Source: Chlorops oryzae
Taxonomy: Eukaryota > Arthropoda > Insecta > Diptera > Chloropidae
NCBI GenBank assembly: GCA_020466095.1
Contig: CM035807.1
Coordinates: forward strand, 65,281,050 to 65,345,049
Length of the DNA stretch: 64,000 nucleotides
Reading direction: 5' to 3'
Positions 1-36,871 of the stretch are shown here, in pieces (position 1 is the stretch's first letter; the number at the start of each line of letters is the position of its first letter). The translations under genes were made by a program, and so were the position numbers. The notes beneath the pieces are model-generated. The model worked only from the letters and a program-made list of their open reading frames with translations. It was not told the DNA's origin and made no database searches.

Positions 1-2
1 GC

Positions 3-158
3 CATCAGAGAATGCCTAATGCGAACAACCAAATACAATGCTTCATGTGCAAAGAAGTAGGCCATATAGCCCGAAATTGCCCACAACAGACGCAGCGTAG
101 CCAGACAATCCCCGCACCTAACACGGGAAACGCCCAGCGGCCCAGTCTCGGCCGGTAG
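3..158 (+). CDS. gag: gag C-terminus with CCHC zinc knuckle (partial)
   Basis: Reading from base 3 gives an open frame to the TAG at 156-158. It contains one CX2CX4HX4C knuckle (CFMCKEVGHIARNC, codons starting at 39), the nucleocapsid motif that binds genomic RNA in retroelement gag proteins. The tail after the knuckle is short and rich in Q, P and N. Matrix and capsid parts are outside the window. The pol frame opens 37 bases before this stop, in the -1 register. Confidence 0.85.
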   Translation, partial: HQRMPNANNQIQCFMCKEVGHIARNCPQQTQRSQTIPAPNTGNAQRPSLGR

Positions 159-3100
159 ACTGGAGTGCCCAAAAAGAAGTTTTAGAACGGCAAAACCCTG
201 CCCTGGGGAACAGCCACAAACCAGGGGCAGGAGGAGGGGGAGAGCCAGGATGCAAAGAAGATCCTTTGAAATGCCTAGGCGCAGAACGACTGGAGGAGCC
301 AGAGGGCCAAGAAGTGCCTTTGGACAGTCTGGGAAAAAGAAATCGATTACCAAAATGGGGAAAATCGAGAAGAGAAATTCCGACGGAGGAAATAGAAAAG
401 GAGATAAAGGAGAAAATGCTTATAGACATTGGTCAGGAGACTAATGCAATGAAACCAAGGAAAAAGGGCAAACGAGTGACTTTTAAGAGCACGGTCAAAG
501 TGTTTGTATACCCAATATGCAAGATGGAAGCTACGAAGACAAAGGAAAGATTGGAAAAATGGAAAGAAAACGCAAGACTATTGAAAAGGTTGTATATCAA
601 TGCATGGCTGATGTTTTTCTTTTTTCTAAGCGAGTTTTTCCAATTCACGAAACAATTTTTGGCGGGTGAACCCAATGGGCCAAAAGGAGATGAATGCGTT
701 GAATTATCCTGCGAGCAGGCTATCAACGACGGAATCGAAAGGGTAGAAGAACCGAATTGGATCGCTGCAACTGCGACTCGAGAGGACGATGCGTACATCG
801 AAATACCCTGTAGCCAGGCTATCGACGGCAGCATCACCCTATTGATCGATTCAGGGGCAGAGGCAAGTCTGGTTAAAAGAGAGGTGCTGATGGAAGACGT
901 TCCGATAAACCGAAAGGATACGAAGTCCTTGAGAGGGGCATTTGGAGGAAATTCGACTACGATTGGATCAATAAAATTGAAGCACAAGGCAATTCCAGCA
1001 TTGGAGATGGTGATGCACGTGGTGCCACGGAATAGCAGCCTGCCAGCAGATGGACTCCTGGGGAGAGACATGCTCTGGAACAGGACTATACTAGATTCCA
1101 TCAGAAAGGAGTTGACCTTCAAAGAAAAAGGTAATCTGGTAGCCACAATGCCTCTAAGGATAAGAGGAGAGAAAATCTATACCGCAGAGACGATTAGAAT
1201 CCCACCAAGATCCACGAGGATAGTACGAATAAATACAGGACTACTCACGGAGGAAGTAGTCGTGCAGAAAAAACTGTTAGAAGAACATATTTATATTGGA
1301 GAAAGCCTCACGAAACCCAAAAATGGTATTGGGTTCGTTACAATACTGAACGCATCGGAAAAGGACACCGAAATAAAAGAAGGAATGGAGGTAAAATATT
1401 CGTTATTGAAGGAGTACGAAATTTTGAGCATTTCAGAAATAAATGCACCGAGTAATAGTCAAGCTGACGAAAGGAAGAATATGCTAATCAATTCCCTAAA
1501 ATTAGAGGAGAATTTGAATGAAGAAGAAAGACAGTCCATAATTGCAATTTGCAAGGACTATTCCGATGTATTTCATCTAAAGGGCGATAAACTGAGTTTT
1601 ACAAATGTGCTCAAACATGAAATCACCACGGAAGCAGGAAAGGCACCGATCAATATAAGACAGTATCGCTTGCCGGAAGCACACAAGGAGGAAATAAATA
1701 AACAGGTAGGAGAAATGCTGGAACAAGGGATAATTGCTCCAAGCAAGTCACCATGGAACGCACCGATTATCCTAGTGCCGAAAAAGGCAGGTACAGACGG
1801 GAAAAAGAAATGGCGACTGGTGGTGGATTTCCGCCAACTAAATGAAATTACGGTGAAACAGGTATTCCCGATACCACGAATTGACGAAATCCTCGACCAA
1901 CTGGGTTGCAGTCGATATTTTACAACCTTGGATCTGGCGAGTGGATACCACCAAGTATTGGTAGATGAGCCAGCTAGAGGTAAAACAGCTTTCAGCACGG
2001 GTTTAGGACACTATGAATTCGTGCGAATGCCATTTGGACTCTCAGGAGCGCCAGCCACGTTTCAACGGATCATGAACAGTGTCCTGACTGGGCTACAAGG
2101 AGTCGACTGTTTCGTCTACCTGGACGATATAGTAATTTACGGGAGCAACCTGGAGCAACACGAACTAAGACTCCGAAAAGTACTGCAAGCTCTACGGGAG
2201 AATAGGCTAAAGATCCAAACGGAAAAATGTCAATTTTTACGAAAGGAGGTAGTTTACTTGGGACATAAGTGTTCCGACCAAGGTGTGCGACCAGATCCTG
2301 GGAAAGTAGAATGCGTGGAAAAATTCCCAATTCCAAAAAACAAAAAGGAATTGCAGGCTTTCCTAGGATTGGCGAATTATTACAGAAAATTCATACCGAA
2401 CGCAGCCAACCTTTTAATGCCACTAACATCACTATTGAAAAAGGACAGTGAATTTACGTGGACGAATGATTGCGAAAACGCGGTGGAGAAAATTAAAACT
2501 GCAATTACAAACCCACCACTATTGAAGTACGCGGATTTTTCTAAGCCATTCTTGCTAACAACGGATGCAAGCAACGAAGCGCTAGGAGCGGTACTTTCGC
2601 AAGGCGAGCCGGGCGACGACCAACCAATTGCGTTTGCAAGCCGAGCCTTGAGTGCAACAGAAAGAAGATACTCTACCATCGAAAAGGAATTCTTAGCCAT
2701 TGTGTGGGCGGCCAAAAATTTTCGTTGCTACCTTTTAGGGCGGCCATTTACAGTTTACACAGACCACAAGCCCCTAAAGGGTATAGCAAACTTAAAGGAT
2801 CAGACATCCCGATTGGCCAGATTCCGCCATAAGCTCTCGGAATTTGATTTCGAAATCTGTTACAAGGCTGGGAAATATAATTTAAACGCAGACGCATTGA
2901 GCCGATTACCATATGAAAATAATCTGGTCGCAGTAGTGACAAGAGCACAAACACAGTCCAAAATAGAGCAGAGCCATGAAAATACGGAGACAAATAAAAG
3001 CAAAGATGAATCGGAAGATACAAATCCCACAGATCACCCAGAGACAGAGGATTTAGCAGAATTTTTAACACAGAGAAAAGACATCGAAGAGGTGCTTAAA

Positions 3101-4132
3101 AATTTTCACGATGGGCCATTAGGAGGTCACAAAGGAGCTTTAAAAACATATTTCCGCATTCGACGACAGTACAAGTGGAACGGCATGCAGAGGGAGATTC
3201 GAAATTATATAAAAAACTGCGAGAAATGCCAGCGGAATAAATGCTCAAAAGTAGAAAGAATGCCCATGGTACTCACAGACATAGCTCATGGCCCCTTCTA
3301 CAAAGTTTATATGGATATGGTAGGCCCCCTACCGGAAACATCGAGAGGAAACAAATACATTTTAACATTCATAGACGATTTTTCAAAATTTTTCATCTGC
3401 ACAGCTATTCCGGATGCAGAAGCGGCAACAGTGGCAAAATCTTTTTTCAACGAGATAATATCAAAGTTTCAGATACCAAAGGTTTTAATCACGGATAACG
3501 GCACAAACTTTACATCGAAATTATTTAAGGAAGTTTGCAAAATTCTGGGAATCAAGAAATCCCAAACGTCACCATACCACCCCCAAGCCAATGGTGCTCT
3601 TGAAAGGAGTCACCGACCTCTTGCGGAATTTCTCCGAAATTTCGTCAAGGAGGATGGCACAAATTGGGATGAATGGCTGCACCACGCTATGCACGTGCAT
3701 AACAACACAGTACATTCATCCACAAAACAAACACCTTGCAAAATTATTTTTGGATTTGAAGCCGACATTCCACTCAACTTAAAAAGAAAACCGGAGCCAC
3801 TGTACAACACAGACGATTTTCCAAAAATATTAAAATATCAAATCCAGCGCACCCATCAGTTAGTACGAGAAAACCAAAAAATAGCTAAAGAGAAATCAAA
3901 ACGTTACTACGATAAGGGCTCGAAAGTAAGAGAATTTCAGACGGGAGACAAGGTGTGGCTAAAGAACCAAAACCGAAAAAATAAATTCTCACCCATTTGG
4001 GAAGGCCCTTATTCGATTGTATCAATTCCAACGCCGGTGAATGTAAAATTGAAAATCAAAGGAAAAGAAAAAACATTCCACAAAAACTTAATAAAGCGTC
4101 ATCATCAAAAAGAACAACAAACAAAACAATAA
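122..4132 (+). CDS. pol: pol polyprotein: protease, reverse transcriptase, RNase H, integrase
   Basis: The frame is open from 122 to the TAA at 4130-4132 with no internal stop. The codon at 266 is TTG rather than ATG, consistent with expression by -1 frameshifting from gag. Domains in order: retropepsin with DSG at about 848 (LIDSGAEASLV); reverse transcriptase with LDLASGYHQ and the catalytic YLDDIVIY near 2115; RNase H with TTDAS near 2560 and YTDHKPL near 2757; integrase with an HHCC zinc finger near 3110-3240, a D-D-E core (MDMVGPLP, TDNGTNF, GALERSH) and a C-terminal GPY/F module (WEGPYSIV) near 4000. All catalytic residues I can locate are present. It copies and integrates the element. 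The chromodomain found in some Ty3/gypsy lineages is absent. Confidence 0.95.
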   Translation, partial: HGKRPAAQSRPVDWSAQKEVLERQNPALGNSHKPGAGGGGEPGCKEDPLKCLGAERLEEPEGQEVPLDSLGKRNRLPKWGKSRREIPTEEIEKEIKEKMLIDIGQETNAMKPRKKGKRVTFKSTVKVFVYPICKMEATKTKERLEKWKENARLLKRLYINAWLMFFFFLSEFFQFTKQFLAGEPNGPKGDECVELSCEQAINDGIERVEEPNWIAATATREDDAYIEIPCSQAIDGSITLLIDSGAEASLVKREVLMEDVPINRKDTKSLRGAFGGNSTTIGSIKLKHKAIPALEMVMHVVPRNSSLPADGLLGRDMLWNRTILDSIRKELTFKEKGNLVATMPLRIRGEKIYTAETIRIPPRSTRIVRINTGLLTEEVVVQKKLLEEHIYIGESLTKPKNGIGFVTILNASEKDTEIKEGMEVKYSLLKEYEILSISEINAPSNSQADERKNMLINSLKLEENLNEEERQSIIAICKDYSDVFHLKGDKLSFTNVLKHEITTEAGKAPINIRQYRLPEAHKEEINKQVGEMLEQGIIAPSKSPWNAPIILVPKKAGTDGKKKWRLVVDFRQLNEITVKQVFPIPRIDEILDQLGCSRYFTTLDLASGYHQVLVDEPARGKTAFSTGLGHYEFVRMPFGLSGAPATFQRIMNSVLTGLQGVDCFVYLDDIVIYGSNLEQHELRLRKVLQALRENRLKIQTEKCQFLRKEVVYLGHKCSDQGVRPDPGKVECVEKFPIPKNKKELQAFLGLANYYRKFIPNAANLLMPLTSLLKKDSEFTWTNDCENAVEKIKTAITNPPLLKYADFSKPFLLTTDASNEALGAVLSQGEPGDDQPIAFASRALSATERRYSTIEKEFLAIVWAAKNFRCYLLGRPFTVYTDHKPLKGIANLKDQTSRLARFRHKLSEFDFEICYKAGKYNLNADALSRLPYENNLVAVVTRAQTQSKIEQSHENTETNKSKDESEDTNPTDHPETEDLAEFLTQRKDIEEVLKNFHDGPLGGHKGALKTYFRIRRQYKWNGMQREIRNYIKNCEKCQRNKCSKVERMPMVLTDIAHGPFYKVYMDMVGPLPETSRGNKYILTFIDDFSKFFICTAIPDAEAATVAKSFFNEIISKFQIPKVLITDNGTNFTSKLFKEVCKILGIKKSQTSPYHPQANGALERSHRPLAEFLRNFVKEDGTNWDEWLHHAMHVHNNTVHSSTKQTPCKIIFGFEADIPLNLKRKPEPLYNTDDFPKILKYQIQRTHQLVRENQKIAKEKSKRYYDKGSKVREFQTGDKVWLKNQNRKNKFSPIWEGPYSIVSIPTPVNVKLKIKGKEKTFHKNLIKRHHQKEQQTKQ
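125..163 (+). promoter_or_regulatory. -1 ribosomal frameshift signal between gag and pol
   Basis: The heptamer GGGAAAC lies at 125-131 and is read G GGA AAC in the gag frame, a classical X XXY YYZ slippery site. Ten bases later a perfect 7-bp stem (CCAGTCT 142-148 with AGACTGG 157-163) closes an 8-base loop. The pol frame is open from 122, just after a TAA at 119-121, and gag stops at 156-158, so slippage must occur within exactly this interval. The heptamer, spacing, stem and overlap all agree. Confidence 0.85.
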
Positions 4133-4475
4133 CACGTGCCTTACGGCGACAAAACAAAAAGAATATAAGTAATGCAATTTTTTTTAACGAACAAAAAATA
4201 TAATAATAGCACACGTTTAAAATACAATAACCTAAAGCACCGAAATATGTAATATGCCAACCAAGGCGTTTACGAGAAATGGGAATTCCTAAAGAAAAGG
4301 AAAAGAAAAAATTTTGTTTTATGCATGCACTTCACAATACCATTCAATCGGAATCGAACTCCCGTCAGCTGAAAATATCTTCAAATCGATACAAATCGCA
4401 ACCACTCAGTATATGCCGTAAAGCAAACATTTAAACCATCAAAAGTAACATACACGCAAGGTCGAGCGGAAAACG
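4133..4475 (+). other. A/T-rich spacer between pol and the protease ORF
   Basis: These 343 bases have no ORF of note. They probably hold the acceptor for a spliced message that places the protease ORF first. CGTCAG at about 4365-4370 is one weak candidate acceptor. Confidence 0.4.
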
Positions 4476-5291
4476 ATGTCTAGCAGAAATTGGAAAATGA
4501 ATTGGAATTTAGATGAAATTAATGAGACAAATTGGCTGAACGACGATCACGTCAACTCCCTCCTGCCATGGATAATGAGTAGGGCTAACAACAAGAAGAT
4601 TCACGTATTCGACACGCACTTTTATGCATGCGCAACCTCATCGAAGGAAAAATCAGTGCCGGAACAATTACGTTTGAACGGTTTTCTAAAAAGAGTGAAC
4701 ATATTCGAGTGCGAGAGCCTGGTGATCCCAGTACACGAGAGAAACCACTGGATGCTGGCAATCGTAACATGGCCAGCGATCTACGTACTGGACTCCCTTA
4801 AGCCGCACAATGCAAAGAATATCGCAGAAAAAATAAGGTCAATTGTGCAATGGGAGGCGAAAAGAAAATGTCCAGCAGACACCACGGAGTATTCGGAAGA
4901 TGCGATGCCGCTAATATATCCGGAATGTAGCCAACAACAAAACCTAAATGATTGCGGAATATATTTGCTGCGTTTTGCGGAAAAATACCGAGACGTTGTA
5001 AGTTCAGGACGAGCCTTTTTGCCCCGAGACGCCTTCGTGGAGGAAAGTAAAATTTCAAGAAAATTTCTAGACAAGGTGGTAAAAGAACACAAGATGATTC
5101 GAATGGAGTGGAATGCGACGGAAGAAGAGCAGATATTCATACAAAACGAAATTCGAAAAATTAAAGCAAACTGCAAACCAGGAGTTCGAAAATATGGTAG
5201 AGTAGTGTATAAAAATAAAATTTATTCAGTATTTGTCTCTCGTAAAGGGGACGTTAGGTATAAGAAATTGAAATGCGCAATAGGCAACTAA
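4476..5291 (+). CDS. Ulp1/SENP-like (peptidase C48) cysteine protease carried by the retroelement
   Basis: This is a complete 271-codon ORF with a real ATG in good context (AAAACGATG). Ulp1-family landmarks appear in the right order and spacing: the substrate-binding WLND (residues 20-23), catalytic His in NHW (His91), catalytic Asp in YVLDSL (Asp106), oxyanion-hole Gln in QQQ (153-155) and catalytic Cys in NDCGIYLL (Cys160). The family removes SUMO, NEDD8 or ubiquitin-like proteins, or cleaves di-Gly precursors. The last ~70 residues, basic and aromatic (near VYKNKIYSVFVSRKGDVRY), lie outside the core and are unrecognised. It sits between pol and env in the same orientation, is free of stops, and has A-rich codon use like pol and env. 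Substrate specificity cannot be read from the sequence. An adenain-like role in processing the element's own proteins is an alternative. Confidence 0.82.
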   Translation: MSSRNWKMNWNLDEINETNWLNDDHVNSLLPWIMSRANNKKIHVFDTHFYACATSSKEKSVPEQLRLNGFLKRVNIFECESLVIPVHERNHWMLAIVTWPAIYVLDSLKPHNAKNIAEKIRSIVQWEAKRKCPADTTEYSEDAMPLIYPECSQQQNLNDCGIYLLRFAEKYRDVVSSGRAFLPRDAFVEESKISRKFLDKVVKEHKMIRMEWNATEEEQIFIQNEIRKIKANCKPGVRKYGRVVYKNKIYSVFVSRKGDVRYKKLKCAIGN

Positions 5292-5431
5292 CCAAAAATA
5301 AGAAAAGAATTTTATTTTCTTTAATAAACATGAAATCAAAATGAAGAAGGATAGCGTTTTTTTTAATGTAATAACGATTTGGCGTTAAATTGGAGGAGCC
5401 TTTGTGGAAGCGACAACGGGCGTAGAGGTGT

Positions 5432-6967
5432 GTGCAAATTCAGTTTTCTTTTTCTTTTCAGGAAAAAATAATCATCTTTGGGTTAATAACAACAGTCACC
5501 TACGGACGACTTCAAATAACGCCAGTAGACGAACAAGGAGGATTTGTTCAGATCCACATAAAAGAAACAGAAATTATAGAGGATTTCTACACCGTGCTAC
5601 ATGTGATACACCCAGCCGAAATCCTAAAGGTCATCAACACAATCAACGAGTATGTCGATACGGTGGAAATAAAAAACAGAGAACTGCTGCTGGCAGAAAT
5701 TAGAACAATCAGATCAAAAATTAGCTCCATTATACCAAGGGAGAATGATCGATCTCGAAGAGGACTTCTGAACGCGGTAGGTACGGCCGCCAACTGGCTA
5801 TTTGGCGTCATGGACGATGACGACCGGAAAGAAATCCTAGAGCACTTGACATTGGCAGACCAGAATAGCCATAACGCCATAAAAGGGTTGAACGAACAAA
5901 TATACATAAACGATTTTTTCAACGAAACAATTTCAACGATAAAAAGGACGATGGAAAAGGATCTGGGCATGGTTAACGAAGTATTCACCACCGTAAAAAG
6001 ACAAAACGACGAAATCACTAAGCACCTCCGTTATCATGACCAAATGCTAAAACTAAAAAGCATAGAAGAAAAGGTCAACATCATCCAGGACAGTATCTCA
6101 TCAGCAAAAAACGGGGTGGCGCATCCCAACATACTAACGACAGAGGAGATAGAAAGATTCAAAATGGACTATTACAAAGTAAAACTGATCAGAGTGGGAG
6201 TGATGTCATATGCAAACAAAGCACTAATAATCGCAGTAAAAATTCCAAGAAACTTCCGGAAAATAGAAGTAAAATGGTTAACCCCTCTTCCTAACCTGAG
6301 TCACAAGGAAATTATAGAAAGAGACGAACAAATCACAACAATAGATAACACAACTTACAGTTTCACGGAAAACGCGGTACGAAAGGAACTGAAAAAGAGT
6401 AGAAACTGCGTTCTTCTTAACACATGTAGACTCCAGTATAACAACAAATTCTCCATACAATACATAGACGAATCAACACTACTAATAAAAAACGCGAGGC
6501 AAACGCAGATCACACACGATTGCGACAAGCGCAACATTACACTTAACAAGAACATACTCATATCCTTCTCCAATTGCACCATAATCATTCAAAACCAAAA
6601 TTTTACGAATACGCAGATCATAATGAACGAAAAATATTTCTACCAAGAAAACGAAAACAACAATATCAAATTCAACGACACCATTAACTTCGAAGAAATT
6701 CAAATAAAAAGTGTTAAAAATCGAAAACTCATTGAAGAATTAACATTACACAGGAATATATCATATGGCATAAGCACGACGCTCGTCATAGCAGCAATAA
6801 TAGGAGTCATATTCCTGTGTGTATGTCTCCGAAACAAAAGCGTGAACATAAGAAATAGCCTGGAACTCTCAGAAAGGCAACCACAAAGAAGAACAAGTAT
6901 TCGGACACTCAATAAACAATTTAGAGAAAAAGCAGCGAGCAAAGAGCCTAACGTCAACACAAATTAA
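5432..6967 (+). CDS. env: F-type envelope glycoprotein
   Basis: The frame runs to TAA at 6965-6967. The apparent start at 5432 is GTG, and its first ten codons are the polypyrimidine tract, so true coding begins at 5462 after splicing. Residue numbers here count from 5432. A signal-peptide-like stretch (IIIFGLITTVTYG) opens the protein. A furin-type RSRR lies at residues 107-110, followed by a glycine-rich hydrophobic segment (GLLNAVGTAANWLFG) like the cleavage site and fusion peptide of errantivirus and baculovirus F proteins. Several N-X-S/T sites follow. A transmembrane helix (TLVIAAIIGVIFLCVC, ~residues 446-465) and a ~45-residue basic tail end it. In the family this protein mediates membrane fusion. 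The frame is intact apart from the leader exon lying elsewhere. Confidence 0.88.
   Translation: MQIQFSFSFQEKIIIFGLITTVTYGRLQITPVDEQGGFVQIHIKETEIIEDFYTVLHVIHPAEILKVINTINEYVDTVEIKNRELLLAEIRTIRSKISSIIPRENDRSRRGLLNAVGTAANWLFGVMDDDDRKEILEHLTLADQNSHNAIKGLNEQIYINDFFNETISTIKRTMEKDLGMVNEVFTTVKRQNDEITKHLRYHDQMLKLKSIEEKVNIIQDSISSAKNGVAHPNILTTEEIERFKMDYYKVKLIRVGVMSYANKALIIAVKIPRNFRKIEVKWLTPLPNLSHKEIIERDEQITTIDNTTYSFTENAVRKELKKSRNCVLLNTCRLQYNNKFSIQYIDESTLLIKNARQTQITHDCDKRNITLNKNILISFSNCTIIIQNQNFTNTQIIMNEKYFYQENENNNIKFNDTINFEEIQIKSVKNRKLIEELTLHRNISYGISTTLVIAAIIGVIFLCVCLRNKSVNIRNSLELSERQPQRRTSIRTLNKQFREKAASKEPNVNTN
5444..5461 (+). promoter_or_regulatory. 3' splice acceptor for the env message
   Basis: A polypyrimidine run (TTTTCTTTTTCTTTTCAG) ends in AG at 5460-5461, directly before the segment encoding a hydrophobic leader. 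The env frame has no ATG upstream of the leader, so a spliced exon must supply the start. Errantiviruses such as gypsy make env from a spliced RNA. Confidence 0.7.
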
Positions 6968-6998
6968 AAGCGTATGGAATTATTAACCAAAACATCTT

Positions 6999-7004
6999 TT
7001 TATT
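6999..7004 (-). terminator. poly(A) signal for the opposite-strand gene
   Basis: TTTATT on the plus strand is AATAAA on the minus strand, about 50 nt beyond the stop of the 88-aa ORF. A/T-rich DNA makes chance occurrence common, so this is only supporting evidence. Confidence 0.35.
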
Positions 7005-7051
7005 TAAAAAATTTTTTTTTGTTTTATATTTTTACAATTTTGTTTTACAAT

Positions 7052-7318
7052 TTAGTCCCATGATTCCAAACAGAAATGAAATTTTTTAATGTGGGAGAAG
7101 TCCTTCAGGGACACCCAACGAACTGGTGGAATAGGAATCGGACGACGGGGTATCCCTAAAAAATCGTACTTAGCATCCAAGTACGGGAGATACAACTGCG
7201 GACCCGTGGGTAACAAATGGAGAAATAGATCCATACCTCTCAATGGGGGGGGCGGGACCACGTACCGCTCCTCACGAAGATAATAATCCTCAACAGTGTA
7301 GAAATCATTAAACGTCAT
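7052..7318 (-). CDS. 88-aa opposite-strand ORF of unknown function inside the retroelement
   Basis: On the minus strand an ATG at 7318-7316 opens 88 codons ending at TAA 7054-7052. The product is rich in aromatic, acidic and proline residues (VVPPPPLRG near residue 21, IPRRPIPIPP near 56) and ends in FCLESWD. It lacks the composition of a random antisense frame in A-rich DNA. One base before the ATG is a fly-type acceptor (TTATTTCGTTTCAG), 78 nt downstream of a perfect donor GTAAGT. A minus-strand AATAAA lies at 7004-6999, about 50 nt past the stop. These features suggest a convergent transcription unit facing env. I do not recognise the protein. Whether other copies of the element keep the ORF is the key test. 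Confidence 0.55.
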   Translation of the reverse strand: MTFNDFYTVEDYYLREERYVVPPPPLRGMDLFLHLLPTGPQLYLPYLDAKYDFLGIPRRPIPIPPVRWVSLKDFSHIKKFHFCLESWD

Positions 7319-7319
7319 T

Positions 7320-7397
7320 CTGAAACGAAATAAGGTATGGAAAAAGAAACACATAAAACAATATTCACCAAAAATATATGAGAAAAATTATACTTAC
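7320..7397 (-). other. putative 78-nt intron of the opposite-strand gene
   Basis: The minus-strand donor GTAAGT (7397-7392) and acceptor CAG (ending 7320) are 78 nt apart, a typical short fly intron. The pyrimidine-rich CCTTATTTCGTTT precedes the acceptor. The upstream exon (7398 upward) has no ATG and would be 5' UTR. Confidence 0.5.
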
Positions 7398-7498
7398 TCG
7401 AACAGAGTCAATATCGAACTTAAAAGAAATCGACGAAAACGCGACTATAAATAAGAAAATTTTGGAAAATTTTTTTTTTCCTTTTTCACACAATATTT

Positions 7499-7860
7499 CG
7501 GTTAAAAAAGCATTTGCAAGCAAAACACATGCTTGAAAATGGTCAATATCCGAAATAGAATTTGCTTGCACATGGTTAATTACCGAAGAAAACTGCGTCG
7601 GTTAAAAAAGCATTTGCAAGCAAAACGCATGCCTGAAAATGGTCAATATCCGAAATAGAATTTACTTGCAATATCGGTATCGAAAAAAATATTTTTTTTC
7701 TCGATCCCAAGGGCAAACATGCAGCCACATGTGCACCCGAACCGAACAAAAAGGGTAAAGAAAAAGCATTTGCAAGCAAAAATGCTTGCTTGCACATGGT
7801 TAATTACCTAAGTAAACTGCATCGGTGGGAAAAGCAATTGCAAGCAAACCGCATGTAGAA
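7499..7860. repeat. 100-bp tandem repeat block in the 3' region of the retroelement
   Basis: Two units start with CGGTTAAAAAAGCATTTGC at 7499 and 7599, exactly 100 bp apart and nearly identical for ~75 bases. Related pieces recur at ~7764-7855 (AGCATTTGCAAGCAAA and GGTTAATTACC motifs). The block lies just upstream, on the minus strand, of the putative first exon of the opposite-strand gene. It could be a promoter, enhancer or insulator-like array. Tandem sites also occur in gypsy, but the motif here is not one I recognise. Confidence 0.85.
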
Positions 7861-8144
7861 TATTTCCAATAACGCATTGACAGAGTTTTATATTTTTGTG
7901 TGTCTTCTACACAGCGATATTTCGGCAAAATCAGCACAAAACCTCAACCTTCATTAAAGGGGGGAAGGGGTAGTAGCACGTAGCACAAGTAATATAAAGA
8001 ATCATTCACTTTACATTTCTCGACTCCAAAATATGTGAAAAGGAAGTCAGCAAAGTCTAATCAAGAATTATATAAAAAACATAAGCAAATTTTATTATAA
8101 CAAAAAAAAAAAAAAAGGGGTAAAAATATAAGTACTTTGAATCG

Positions 8145-8721: not shown

Positions 8722-8735
8722 GAAGAGGGGAGGGA
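8722..8735 (+). promoter_or_regulatory. polypurine tract
   Basis: GAAGAGGGGAGGGA directly precedes the LTR. This is the position and composition expected for the plus-strand DNA primer of LTR retroelements. Confidence 0.85.
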
Positions 8736-9452
8736 TGTTGTGAGTCAAAACCGTCACGTCACACGCTAACGTAACGCTGCCAGCTCTATCGTCAACGGCA
8801 CGCTATCAGCGCTAAGCCAAAAGCAGTGCAATAAATAATGCATCGTAAACAAATCCAACGGCACCGTTTGAGCTCGAAACCTAACACCTCGAACAACAAC
8901 AGCACGAGCGAGCATGAAATCGAACGCCTCAACAAAGCAACAACGGTCGGCGCTCGAAGTCATAAAAAGAGACACTGTTACCGGAGACGGCAACAACAAC
9001 AACAGAGTCGTGTAATGACAAACAGACCGTCGATATCAATGTCAACCGAGAATCGATCGTTCAAGGCCATCGATCGAAAGGGAAAGCAGGCAGACGAAAG
9101 GCGAAAGAACACGAGCCGCCGAGTCAGCATGTGGACCACACACAAACAAGGGATGTTTGTGGCATACGTTTGCTTGTTCGTATTGCATTTCGTTATGTAC
9201 GTCTTCTTGTGTGTGCACTTGGCTTGCATTAAACCGTACATATGTCGAATGGGTTTTGGAGTGATCGGCATGTTTAGCTGATTGTAAATACATGGCACGA
9301 CGAAAATAGAAGATAACGGCACTTATGCAATCGCCGGAAAACGCCGAAATGCAGAATAGACGGTGACCAAGGGACGCTAGCGGGGAGGTCAGCTGAGGAA
9401 GAAATCTATGACGCTAGCAACTATCGATATTGCGAACGGAGCAATATCGGAC

Positions 9453-9460
9453 TATAAAAG
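9453..9460 (+). promoter_or_regulatory. LTR TATA box
   Basis: TATAAAAG lies within the LTR about 180 bases before the first poly(A) signal, consistent with a U3 promoter. Confidence 0.65.
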
Positions 9461-9629
9461 CGAAGTTCGATTGACAAAATGGACTTATCATCGATTAGCA
9501 TTCGAAGTATTAAGAAGATCTCAACTTTGGCGCACCTACTTACGAGCCAGGACGACAAAGTGTGGATCTCAGTGTTAGCTAGGGAATTAGGGCAGTAAAG
9601 TAAGATAGAATAGAATTATTAAAGACTTT

Positions 9630-9659
9630 AATAAAGAAACATTATTGGAACAGAATAAA
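9630..9659 (+). terminator. LTR poly(A) signals
   Basis: AATAAA occurs at 9630-9635 and 9654-9659, 80-110 bases before the LTR end, as expected for R-region polyadenylation. Confidence 0.6.
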
Positions 9660-9740
9660 GTCAGTGTTTTAATTGGAAAAAGACTTTAGCTCATCGTTGG
9701 CGCATGATAGATGTCCTTTCTCCCCAGCAGACACGCAACA

Positions 9741-9748
9741 GTATTAAT

Positions 9749-33800: not shown

Positions 33801-36596
33801 CAATTTGTTTCGGACATATACTAAATAAGAGTAATGTTGTATTTTAATTATTATTTTACGCTAATGGAAAATTTCTACAAACGGTCAAGGGATTGGCCTA
33901 TAACTAAACACAGACTTATACTGATGACAAAACCTTTCTTAACGAATATTTACGAAACGCGAGTCAAGTTTAAAAATTTAAGTTTATATTAAGAATCAGC
34001 AAGCCAAATACTCTAAACAAAAAGCGGTTTGAAGTCCGAAACTCGCAAAAAGTTTGATTTTGTTGCGAAGTGTAAAATTTGGCTTTTGAGTAAAAAATAA
34101 AACTCAAACAATACATACGTTTTATTTTTAAAAAATAAAAATAAAACTTTGAGACTAGTTGTTTTTTATGTCATAGTAAGGAATGATGTTTTAAGAACAC
34201 AAAAGTTTTTAAAATTTTGAAATACTTTAAACCATATTTGAAAAAAAAATTGTTGTAAAAATGCAATGGTAGTAAAAATTTCTAACGCAATTCTCTCGAA
34301 ACTCTGGCGTGATGCAATTTTTTTGATATTTTTAAATTTTTCAGCACAAAAAAAATCGAACAGAAACACCACTGCAACTCAAAAGGGGAAAATAAAATTT
34401 CAATTTTGCAGGCCTGTGTGATTATTATTCTCTGATCAAAAAATAAAACTCGGAAAATCCTTTTTATTTTATTATCGATAACTAAAACTCTAAAAATAAC
34501 ACTTAAATTGTAATTTTTAAGATAACATATAGGTTGTGCAGTTATGGTCTCTGTTTAAATTTGATGAGAATTATGTTAATTGCAAATTAATTGGCAGTGT
34601 TGAAAAATATGTTTTAGTGTTATTTTTGTTAATGTACTACGTTTGGCACAGTGATTCTTCTTTCCACACACAATCAGTCTTAGAGAGACAATTTATGTAA
34701 CTAAACTAATCCAACAAAACCTCATAGCGACAAAGAAGAAAATATAGATCAAGCAAACAAAACTGACCTTGACATTGTAAGCAGCAGTAATGAATAGCAA
34801 AAAGATAAAGAAGCTGCTGAGCCACGAGTGATAGCAATTCCGACTCCCATAATATGACGTAAATCCGTGTGTTCAGACATGAAAGAGTAGTCTAAAAATG
34901 AAATAATTTTTATGAATTTAACATTGATCAAATATCTTCCTACTTACGTATGAATCGTTCCACAAAAAGTGCAATTGTAATGACGTAGAACAGAAATAAA
35001 TAAAAAATATTCTGTCTATTTTCTTCAAGGAACGTTACATACGCGTCCCATTTCTCCTGAAACCAATTACGTGGTTTTTCATGCATTGGCTCAATGTTAA
35101 ACGATGTCATACGGGCAACATTTGTCGAGGTATCGAGAAAGTTTTGTTTGGCTCCCTTGCAATCTAAGCCGATGGCCACAAAATCTCCTTTGTACTCTTT
35201 CATCATTAGTTTGAAGTCTTGATAGGTTAAATGGTTCTTATGCTCTAAACCTACGTCTTGAAACATTCCATCGATAAGCTCAGTGACTTTATCATCTCCC
35301 AAACTAGTCGTACGCGCCATTTCGACAAGCGAACGCATCATTTCGCTCAGTTCTCCCTTGTCGATTACGCCATTCCTATCGTTGTCGCACATATCAAATA
35401 TGATGCGGAGTTTATCATCGGTTTTCCCGCGAGAAAAAAGAACCACAGTTTCGAGAAATTCTTGGAAACTGATACGCCCGTCCTGGTCCTTGTCAACAAT
35501 GTTAAACATTTTACGCACAAACATGTCATTTGGTTTCATACCTAATGCTGCTGCAAACTCGGTCTTGGAGAGACTAGTACGCATTACTGTCATAACTTCA
35601 CCGTCAATCGACGCGTCTGAACGACGACGTCTTTCTCCTGGACGAAGTCCAAACGTTAGTGCATAGGCTTCGCGAAAAAAGTACTCCAGTCTTTTCTGAC
35701 GTCTTTCACGTGTTTCGGCGCGTGATAACATCACGTCACGATTTATTTCCACCAGCGACATTTCCTTCTTGTGTAAAATGAGAAAGTCCTCCAGCTTTTT
35801 TACAAATTTTCGGCGTGCACCATACGACTCAAGTTCAAGTACCAAATCGTGATCATTAGGTACACGGAGAAGAATGTACGGTTTCTTTTTTATGTGATTT
35901 GATGCCGATTCTTCGACTGTAACCAGATCAACATTTTTCAAACTAAAAGTCCTCAACTTTTCGCCCTTGCGGTCCACGGTATAAATAGCCGCCTCCGGTC
36001 CAAATTTTACTGTTATTAGTCGTTTATGGTTTGCATGAAGCCATTCACGTGCTACCATTTTATCAACAGAACCTTTGTGATTTGTTGAGCGCAAAGCTTC
36101 TTGGCGAATCTTCAGTCTACGTCGTCGACTATTTTGAAGTTTCACGACGCAATAGCCGGCACCGGCGCAAAGAACAGGGACAAAACCAAGAAACACGCAA
36201 ACATATATGAACATTAATTCAGAGCCTGAAAAGTAGTCGTAGCCCTCTAGATGCATACACGGCTCAAGTTCTGTTGCATTTAGTTGCATTGGCTGTGGAC
36301 ATGGGTCACCAGTATTCCATATGAAAACATTGCGTTGTATGTCACTCGGATTTATATCTGTGGCATTAACGATAACGTCCCACATACTGATCTTACGAAT
36401 TTCAGCTATTTCGTCTTTTGTAAATATTCCATTGCGTTCATTTTCAAACCAAAACCGATCAGCATCACGTATACGTAGAAACTGCTCTGTGATTACTGCT
36501 GTAAAAAGTTCTCCCGGCTGGCCGTAGGACTCAAGCATACCACCAACATAGACGTCCACGTCATCTAGTCGATTATGGTAAGCCGAAATAAGCATG
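30732..36596 (-). CDS. Duox: dual oxidase (Duox), six 3' exons; peroxidase domain not in view
   Basis: The exons on the minus strand are 36596-34948, 34891-34768, 32258-32008, 31944-31112, 31038-30910 and 30860-30732. All phases agree and give about 1038 codons ending FENFG-stop. Order: end of the peroxidase-like ectodomain (YHNRLDDVDVYVGG), first TM (LMFIYVCVFLGFVPVL), cytosolic region, EF-hands DKDQDGRISFQEF and DNDRNGVIDKGEL, ferric-reductase TM helices, FAD-binding HSFTLTSAPH, NADPH-binding GGGIGVTPYASIL and the conserved C-terminus. The enzyme transfers electrons from NADPH to O2 to make H2O2 at the membrane. In flies it serves gut immunity and cuticle cross-linking, and Ca2+ activates it through the EF-hands. 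No stops or frameshifts occur. About 500 N-terminal residues must lie upstream of 36596. Confidence 0.97.
30910..31038 (-). CDS. Duox: Duox penultimate exon
   Basis: 43 codons from YICENHFQRL to KKHSY, between acceptor GCCGTAG and donor GTATGT (30909-30904). They were found by extending Duox homology through short introns. Confidence 0.92.
31112..31944 (-). CDS. Duox: Duox exon: TM end, FAD and NADPH binding
   Basis: It encodes TTGVMLFIIMCTIFVFAHP, the FAD-binding region with HSFTLTSAPH, GGGIGVTPYASIL and FLWICPSHKHFEWF, ending FDLRTTML. The donor GTGAGT starts at 31111 and the next intron is 73 nt. Confidence 0.95.
32008..32258 (-). CDS. Duox: Duox exon: ferric reductase transmembrane part 1
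   Basis: It encodes NLITKLKEFPIQQYIPLDSH, then IAACTALFFSVLHTIGHIVN with candidate haem-ligand histidines, ending FWLFQTITG. The donor is GTAATA at 32007 and the intron is 63 nt. Confidence 0.93.
32406..32783. mobile_element. MITE with ~28-bp TIRs in a Duox intron
   Basis: The termini are GGGCTGAATACACGATATGG, continuing TTACTGACC, and the matching inverted end GGTCAGTAACCATATCGTGT followed by AATTAGCCC. The interior repeats CATATCGTGTAA near 32551 and 32668. It has no coding capacity. The target duplication is unclear. Confidence 0.85.
33103..33750. mobile_element. TIR element with embedded tRNA-like sequence (element A)
   Basis: The ends CACCGAGAGAAA and TTTCTCTCGGTG are exact inverted repeats flanked by TA (33101-33102 and 33751-33752). 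The 648-bp interior has AACAGTTA-type repeats, a tRNA-like sequence at 33301-33374 and T runs after it. There is no ORF. Confidence 0.85.
33301..33374 (+). tRNA. tRNA-like sequence (degenerate) inside element A
   Basis: TAGCTCAGTGC resembles a D-arm/A box, and GGTTCGATCCC, 41 bases further, a T-arm/B box. An ACTGT/ACAGT anticodon-like stem lies between. The acceptor and T stems do not pair properly and the anticodon loop has only six bases, so a functional tRNA is unlikely. T-rich sequence follows, as after pol III units. Confidence 0.45.
33751..34767. other. rest of the Duox intron
   Basis: This is A/T-rich intronic DNA with no further element recognised. Confidence 0.5.
34768..34891 (-). 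CDS. Duox: Duox exon: HYSFMSEHTDLRH region
   Basis: It is bounded by acceptor TTTTTAG (34892) and donor GTCAGT (34767-34762). It encodes SEHTDLRHIMGVGIAITRG and a TM helix ending LLLLTMS. The preceding intron is 56 nt and the following one 2509 nt. Confidence 0.93.
34948..36596 (-). CDS. Duox: Duox exon: end of peroxidase-like domain, TM1, EF-hands, TM2
   Basis: The acceptor TCAATTAG ends at 36597 and the donor GTAAGT begins at 34947. It holds ~549 codons with both EF-hands and ends ALFVERFI. The upstream junction is in phase 2 and its partner exon was not found in the window. Confidence 0.93.
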
Positions 36597-36871
36597 CTAA
36601 TTGAGATAAACGAGTAATTAGAAAATCCTTCATAAAACATAAATTAAAGTAACGGGGATACTATTTTTTAATGTAATTTTATAGATATGTATATGTTAAA
36701 GTAAGCATAGAAAACTATCTTTTCGTTTTGTTTTAAGTGTTTTTCTATTTACTTTGCATTTATGTATGACAACTCTTGACAGAACGAAATAGCAATCGCA
36801 AGCTATGCCGCTTTTTGAAGTCAAGACCTTTCGATTAAGAACAATAGTTTAAAAAAGTTTGTTAATATGGT
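36597..36871. other. DNA upstream of the Duox exon
   Basis: It carries the splice acceptor at 36597-36598. No upstream Duox exon is recognisable. Confidence 0.5.

Follow-up and report, generated by a model that had tools for sequence, protein, structure and literature searches.

A SENP-like C48 protease gene kept in an env-bearing Ty3/gypsy element family of Chlorops oryzae, and the enzyme cargoes of its relatives

An errantivirus-like retroelement in the genome of Chlorops oryzae carries, between pol and env, a separate gene that by its sequence encodes a SENP-like cysteine protease of family C48. This gene belongs to the element family, where it is kept in many copies and in several lineages, and, judging from the codon changes between copies, it is maintained as a working protein, under purifying selection and with its active site preserved. 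Related elements have acquired other enzymes as cargo and, with the C48 gene counted in, this happened at a few recurring places. We propose, with a confidence that falls just short of an even chance, that the protein works as the accessory deSUMOylase of an env-bearing Ty3/gypsy element, and that it would act on host proteins, most plausibly weakening SUMO-dependent silencing.

The gene was found in the window, by which we mean the whole analysed stretch of 64,000 nucleotides (C2:65281050-65345049 of the 442-Mb genome G000), and the parts of the element in the window are the following:

1..158, + strand: 3' part of gag, truncated by the left edge of the window and bearing a CCHC knuckle; its frame, number 3, ends with the stop codon 156-158
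122..4132, + strand: pol, with retropepsin, RT, RNase H, H2C2 and integrase (rve) by Pfam; the frame is open from about 122 and the ORF is listed from 266
4476..5291, + strand: predicted Ulp1/SENP-type (C48) protease gene, 271 aa, from the ORF, Pfam and the alignment to PDB chains, besides copies, gene order and selection
4530..4988, + strand: predicted C48 catalytic domain, residues 19-171, with H91, D106, Q154 and C160 (Pfam stretch; conservation in 45 copies)
5088..5288, + strand: C-terminal basic domain of the C48 protein, residues 205-271, from structure prediction
5460..5461, + strand: putative splice acceptor (AG) of the env mRNA, in phase with env and the top acceptor in 3900-8100 by a crude score
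5462..6967, + strand: env of the Baculo_F type (Pfam 39.6 bits, cut-off 24.1; translation)
8722..8735, + strand: polypurine tract before the 3' LTR, seen in the sequence
8736..9740, + strand: 3' LTR, 1005 bp, TG...CA, identical to the 5' LTR
9741..9744, no strand: target-site duplication GTAT, repeated beside the 5' LTR

Gag, a pol in the order PR-RT-RH-IN, LTRs and a target-site duplication were all found in this element, with pol overlapping gag in the -1 frame and with a retropepsin that scored 21.0 bits in Pfam (RVP) against a cut-off of 20.7. The 5' LTR lies outside the window, at G000:C2:65277929-65278933, and the start of gag is likewise to the left of the window (L029). There are zero differences between the 5' and 3' copies of the 1005-bp LTRs (TGTTG...CAACA), GTAT stands on the outer side of both, and the length of the element by LTR coordinates is 12,861 bp. 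Since the two LTRs are identical, the insertion is recent, and the element is a complete one. Its env gives a Baculo_F match above the cut-off, a furin-like RSRR site and a C-terminal membrane span were read by eye in the product, and the acceptor at 5461 was predicted from sequence in phase with env. By these features the element is of the env-bearing Ty3/gypsy type, errantivirus-like, with an env whose mRNA is predicted to be spliced. The errantiviruses gypsy and ZAM have, as this element does, gag, pol, an F-kind env, LTRs and a 4-bp duplication, and the accessible part of PMC12992720 ascribes gag, pol and env-F to the insect retroviruses of Drosophila. In contrast to gypsy and ZAM, the element, which measures about 12.9 kb, adds a C48 gene, which stands in the pol-env gap here and behind env in other lineages, and also a likely antisense gene.

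The stretch 4476-5291 (+) is a single ORF, complete with ATG and stop and 271 codons long, in the ORF list and its translation, whereas the longest open frame on the strand after 2000 single-base shuffles of 4133-5431 was of 148 codons. A first, sequence-only reading had placed this complete frame between pol and env on the same strand, and the ORF list together with the Pfam matches on its flanks bear this out. The same reading had named WLND, His91, Asp106, QQQ at 153-155 and the Cys160 of NDCG, in Ulp1 order, and the translation has all of them at these very residues (W20-L-N-D23, H91, D106, Q153-Q155 and N158-D-C160-G). Its assignment to Ulp1/C48 also withstood the profile search, given that Peptidase_C48 of Pfam matched residues 19-171 with 59.9 bits against a cut-off of 20.7, and seven members from other subfamilies all scored above the cut-off as well (52.5-62.9 bits).

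By sequence, the ORF matches the PDB chains of SENP7, SENP2, SENP1, SENP5 and Ulp1, and a profile built from nine C48 members found SENP7 as its top match among PDB chains (98.3 bits, 4.6e-27), followed by SENP2 with 73.2 bits, the SENP2/1 matches all lying at ~73 bits. Sequence comparison makes H91, D106, Q154 and C160 of the ORF coincide with the corresponding residues of SENP2, which we take to be its active site. The catalytic His, Asp, Gln and Cys follow one another in the same order in SENP6/7, SENP1/2 and Ulp1, all of family C48. In contrast to SENP and Ulp1, however, the ORF is encoded by a retroelement and is short, with a C-terminal basic domain without known match, and it lacks the large insert of SENP7, which aligns to it in two stretches. 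Structure prediction gave this basic domain (residues 205-271) one helix and three strands with a mean pLDDT of 75.7, and comparison of its fold gave no clear match; the model of the whole 271-aa protein was poor, with a mean pLDDT of 35.8. The domain is common to the groups with the order pol-C48-env and less clear in the other arrangements. That the modifier would be SUMO rather than another one is assigned by similarity. As to expression, a search for a strong splice acceptor of C48 had a negative outcome, the acceptor-like sites upstream of it being weak, and no other signal pointed clearly to its expression.

The genome of the window itself was searched in six frames, and at least 142 C48 matches were scored of 749 candidates, with identities from 100% to about 34%. 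These fall into groups, with eight full-length matches at 97-100%, and then others at ~82-86, 62-70, 46-49 and 34-44%. The top 26 match rows align over 260 residues or more at 82-100% identity; 18 of them are free of internal stops and the other 8 contain one or two. Many of the lower-ranked rows are open, too, and many are fragments. Flanks were taken at 28 loci (L001-L028), picked from the C48 matches to cover the identity groups and mostly with open frames. In all of the 23 loci L001-L023, at 46-100% identity, integrase, C48 and env follow in this order on one strand, although integrase or env is partly matched or broken in some of them. C48 stands behind env in sense in L024 and L025, and behind env in antisense in L026 (G000:C1:90018872) and L027 (C2:50839393). 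With wider flanks, L028 and one further C1 locus read RT-IN-env-C48, all in sense, the env of L028 being absent from its first flank and present in the wider one; in L024 and L026, too, the wider flanks put RT-IN-env next to C48. Altogether, env lies beside C48 in 29 of 29 loci chosen by C48 match, arranged as pol-C48-env in 23, as env-C48 in sense in 4 and as env-C48 in antisense in 2, with the latter six being more diverged.

For the study of conservation, 47 C48 copies were fetched, and because they were selected for openness, the share of open ones cannot be carried over to the genome: 45 of the 47 gave a match that stays open over 190 residues or more, the exceptions being L006, which has a stop, and L028, with a shorter match. 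These 45 open copies amount to 44 distinct ones. Trp92 and Gln154 are present in all 45 of them, His91 in 44 with a Gln in the remaining copy, Asp106 in 43 with Glu in 2, and Cys160 also in 43 with Tyr in 2.

The ratio dN/dS was estimated by the Nei-Gojobori method, with limits taken from a codon bootstrap. Eight between-subfamily pairs of C48 gave values of 0.11-0.21 with bootstrap upper limits of 0.17-0.32, two of the eight having a dS above 1.4, near saturation, and it is this range that argues for purifying selection on C48. Four further pairs from remoter groups have a dS that is saturated beyond estimate or very high. The 10 close pairs are noisy, with 0.06-0.37 in eight of them, 0.82 (11 changes) in L026/L027 and 1.79 (8 changes) in L017/L018, which is what would be expected if the changes after insertion were neutral. 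Between the window copy and L009, dN/dS is 0.12 for env and 0.08 for integrase, and C48 evolves faster than integrase. The sequence-only reading had held that the C48 gene is part of an env-bearing LTR element and that the intact frame suggests selection, and it would have counted a lack or breakage of the frame in other copies as a refutation; the order kept in 23/23 loci, the frame free of internal stops in 18/26 top rows and the dN/dS of the eight between-subfamily pairs agree with it on these three points.

The subfamilies may also have traded parts. Between L001 and L009, which belong to two of them, dS is 0.44 in C48 vs. 0.11 in env and 0.15 in integrase, and the C48 divergence is patchy, with the ends and the leader far above the pol and env flanks and the middle not. 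This suggests an exchange of pieces between C48 subfamilies.

A chance landing of an Ulp1-bearing transposon or of a host exon would make the ORF no working part of the element, and both DNA transposons and non-LTR elements are known to contain Ulp1 domains (accessible parts of PMC2836005, PMC4640811 and PMC3212892). We nevertheless consider such an accident highly improbable, given the identical order in 23 of 23 loci, the dN/dS well below 1, the many genomic copies, and the fact that the flanks of the ORF share merely short low-complexity matches. A nested Ulp1 DNA transposon was looked for and rejected, there being no other + strand ORF of at least 80 aa between pol and the env frame, and no terminal repeats beyond the low-complexity flank matches. 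It is likely that the C48 gene was captured by the element.

The kin of the element were sought with its RT region, which found 7841 proteins at E <= 1e-10, and the best 120 of these, which include proteins named 17.6-like Pol of ants, were used. The window element falls inside a 32-row clade both in the 121-row RT tree (96) and in a more careful 54-row tree (97/94), and within that clade it forms a set of four together with P0002, P0004 and P0012 (98/89). Both P0002 and P0004, which are metagenomic gypsy-type Pol proteins, carry a tyrosine phosphatase as their C-terminal part (230 and 238 bits), while the linker between RNase H and integrase holds a ubiquitin-specific protease in P0016 (116 bits), a G-patch in P0030 (32.9 bits) and a doubtful tegument-like domain in P0026. 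The latter (Herpes_teg_N) is in the database's own list, yet it reached 19.1 bits against a cut-off of 25 in our scan and is uncertain; the stretch matches PDB chain 8add with 43.1 bits. An extra domain is thus present in 5 of the 31 other clade rows, one of the five being uncertain, and the remaining 26 have none in the precomputed domain lists. Since P0016, P0026 and P0030 are single records, an assembly error is possible in any one of them, whereas the phosphatase is seen in two.

The metagenomic gypsy-type Pol proteins P0002, P0004 and P0016 are the nearest RT relatives among the best 120, they lie in one supported clade with the window element, and each has an extra enzyme, but their cargo is a C-terminal phosphatase in the first two and a linker ubiquitin-specific protease in the third, with no C48. 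Nor was C48 found anywhere among the best 120 of the 7841 RT relatives, these being Pol records in which a C48 gene outside pol is invisible. The identity between P0002 and P0004 is 41% in the phosphatase, 84% in RT-RNase H and 64% in integrase. After addition of the RT of the two other arrangements, one eight-row group (99/96) held the phosphatase carriers together with all three arrangements; a clade of the window element with just P0002 and P0004 was not rejected (p 0.52), a value that does not show it.

The phosphatase of P0002 and P0004 is a full domain, receptor-type-like, in which the C(X)5R motif was seen by eye. A Macro match in P0057 (25.5 bits, cut-off 22), at residues 721-815 in the RNase H-integrase linker, was set aside as clade cargo because this protein sits in the other large RT group, where the linker is often of 170-200 aa; 17 further linkers resemble the P0057 stretch (phmmer, E <= 0.1).

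SENP-type C48 enzymes cut SUMO from proteins. In the mechanism that we favour, the element-encoded SENP-like protease would act in trans in the cell expressing the element, it would there remove SUMO, or a modifier resembling it, from proteins of the host, and the loss of SUMO would, most plausibly, weaken the SUMO-dependent transcriptional silencing, guided by Piwi, that keeps elements of this type in check in the gonad. Both the SUMO removal and the anti-silencing role are drawn from homology and from the published need for the SUMO machinery in Piwi-guided heterochromatin formation and transposon repression in fly ovaries (accessible part of PMC8733420).

The enzyme might instead serve the element itself, by deSUMOylating or cutting the Gag, integrase or Env that the element encodes while it assembles or integrates. 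In other viruses, cysteine proteases with a related fold do process viral proteins, and C48 is encoded beside pol and env and retained with both of them in 23 of 23 loci, but pol already has a retropepsin, and related elements carry an unrelated phosphatase or ubiquitin-specific protease instead. Such unrelated enzymes in its kin fit host targets better than one processing step, and we regard a role in the element's own cycle as unlikely. The targets could also be host proteins without any relief of silencing, the enzyme stripping SUMO, ubiquitin or another modifier so that immune signalling, DNA repair or turnover would be altered in favour of spread or integration. The tyrosine phosphatase and the ubiquitin-specific protease of the kin point to signalling and turnover and not to chromatin alone, and a repair role was proposed for Ginger transposons (accessible part of PMC2836005); against this stand the best matches of the ORF, which are SENP-type SUMO proteases, and the known part of SUMO in transposon silencing (PMC8733420, in its accessible part), and we consider this possibility somewhat unlikely.

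Returning to a deSUMOylase that weakens silencing, a selected and element-borne enzyme of this kind, if true, would be a candidate anti-silencing factor, and the idea is directly testable given that the pathway it would target, with SUMO, Su(var)2-10 and Panoramix, has already been elucidated in flies. A wider proposal, which we hold as plausible though somewhat below an even chance, is that of an insect endogenous retrovirus clade with exchangeable modifier-erasing accessory genes in recurring slots, where the SUMO protease would be a selected counter to SUMO-dependent silencing and the insect counterpart of lentiviral accessory genes. The slots would be the RNase H-integrase linker, the C-terminus of pol, the gap between pol and env, and the place behind env on either strand, and the exchangeable cargo would be the SUMO protease here and the tyrosine phosphatase and ubiquitin-specific protease in close kin. 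Such an exchange of modifier erasers within one retroelement clade, if true, would imply that accessory genes in the style of retroviruses have an origin in insects separate from that in vertebrate retroviruses.

Ulp1 domains in mobile elements are, of course, already on record in Ginger1 DNA transposons (PMC2836005), in MULE/KIU (PMC13317346), and in NeSL and Utopia non-LTR elements besides Cryptons (PMC4640811, PMC3212892), each according to the accessible part of the source. In plants, KIU-bearing Vandals lead to hypomethylation of related elements, an anti-silencing effect, in which, according to the accessible part of PMC13317346, it is not known what the Ulp1 portion does. Ginger1, MULE/KIU (VANC), NeSL/Utopia and Crypton thus resemble the present case in that a mobile element carries the C48 domain, but those carriers are DNA transposons, non-LTR elements or tyrosine-recombinase elements, all without env, and in Ginger1 and NeSL/Utopia the C48 is a fused domain whereas the window element has it as a separate gene. 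No env-bearing LTR element with a C48 gene was found in the literature searched, the coverage of which was partial and without Chary and Hayashi 2025 (envelope-carrying retrotransposons, eLife 108449), a work that may bear on novelty. We are dealing, therefore, with a cargo of known type, for which we found no earlier report in this type of element.

Besides the C48 gene, a likely antisense gene was observed between env and the 3' LTR, at 7052-7397 (-) of the window, with an 88-aa ORF running from 7318 to 7052, an intron of 78 nt that has GTAAGT at 7397 and tttcgtttCAG ending at 7320, and an AATAAA at about 6999, beyond the ORF. The 88-aa ORF has no Pfam match, and we know of no named relative of its protein. 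Of 13 pieces taken from other copies, 5 contain the gene, and these belong without exception to the 97-100% and 85% groups; the intron signals are retained in 3 of the 5, the ones checked in full, and the dN/dS of the gene against L064 is 0.38 on 22 changes. Just upstream of it, 7462-7855 contains repeats of ~70 nt, as three copies and a partly overlapping pair, which are possibly the regulatory region of the antisense gene. In L026 and L027, the C48 gene in antisense behind env occupies the place that this small gene has in the window element. Elsewhere in the window, a long ORF at 34940-36640 (-) resembles by eye part of a dual oxidase and is presumably a host gene near the element.
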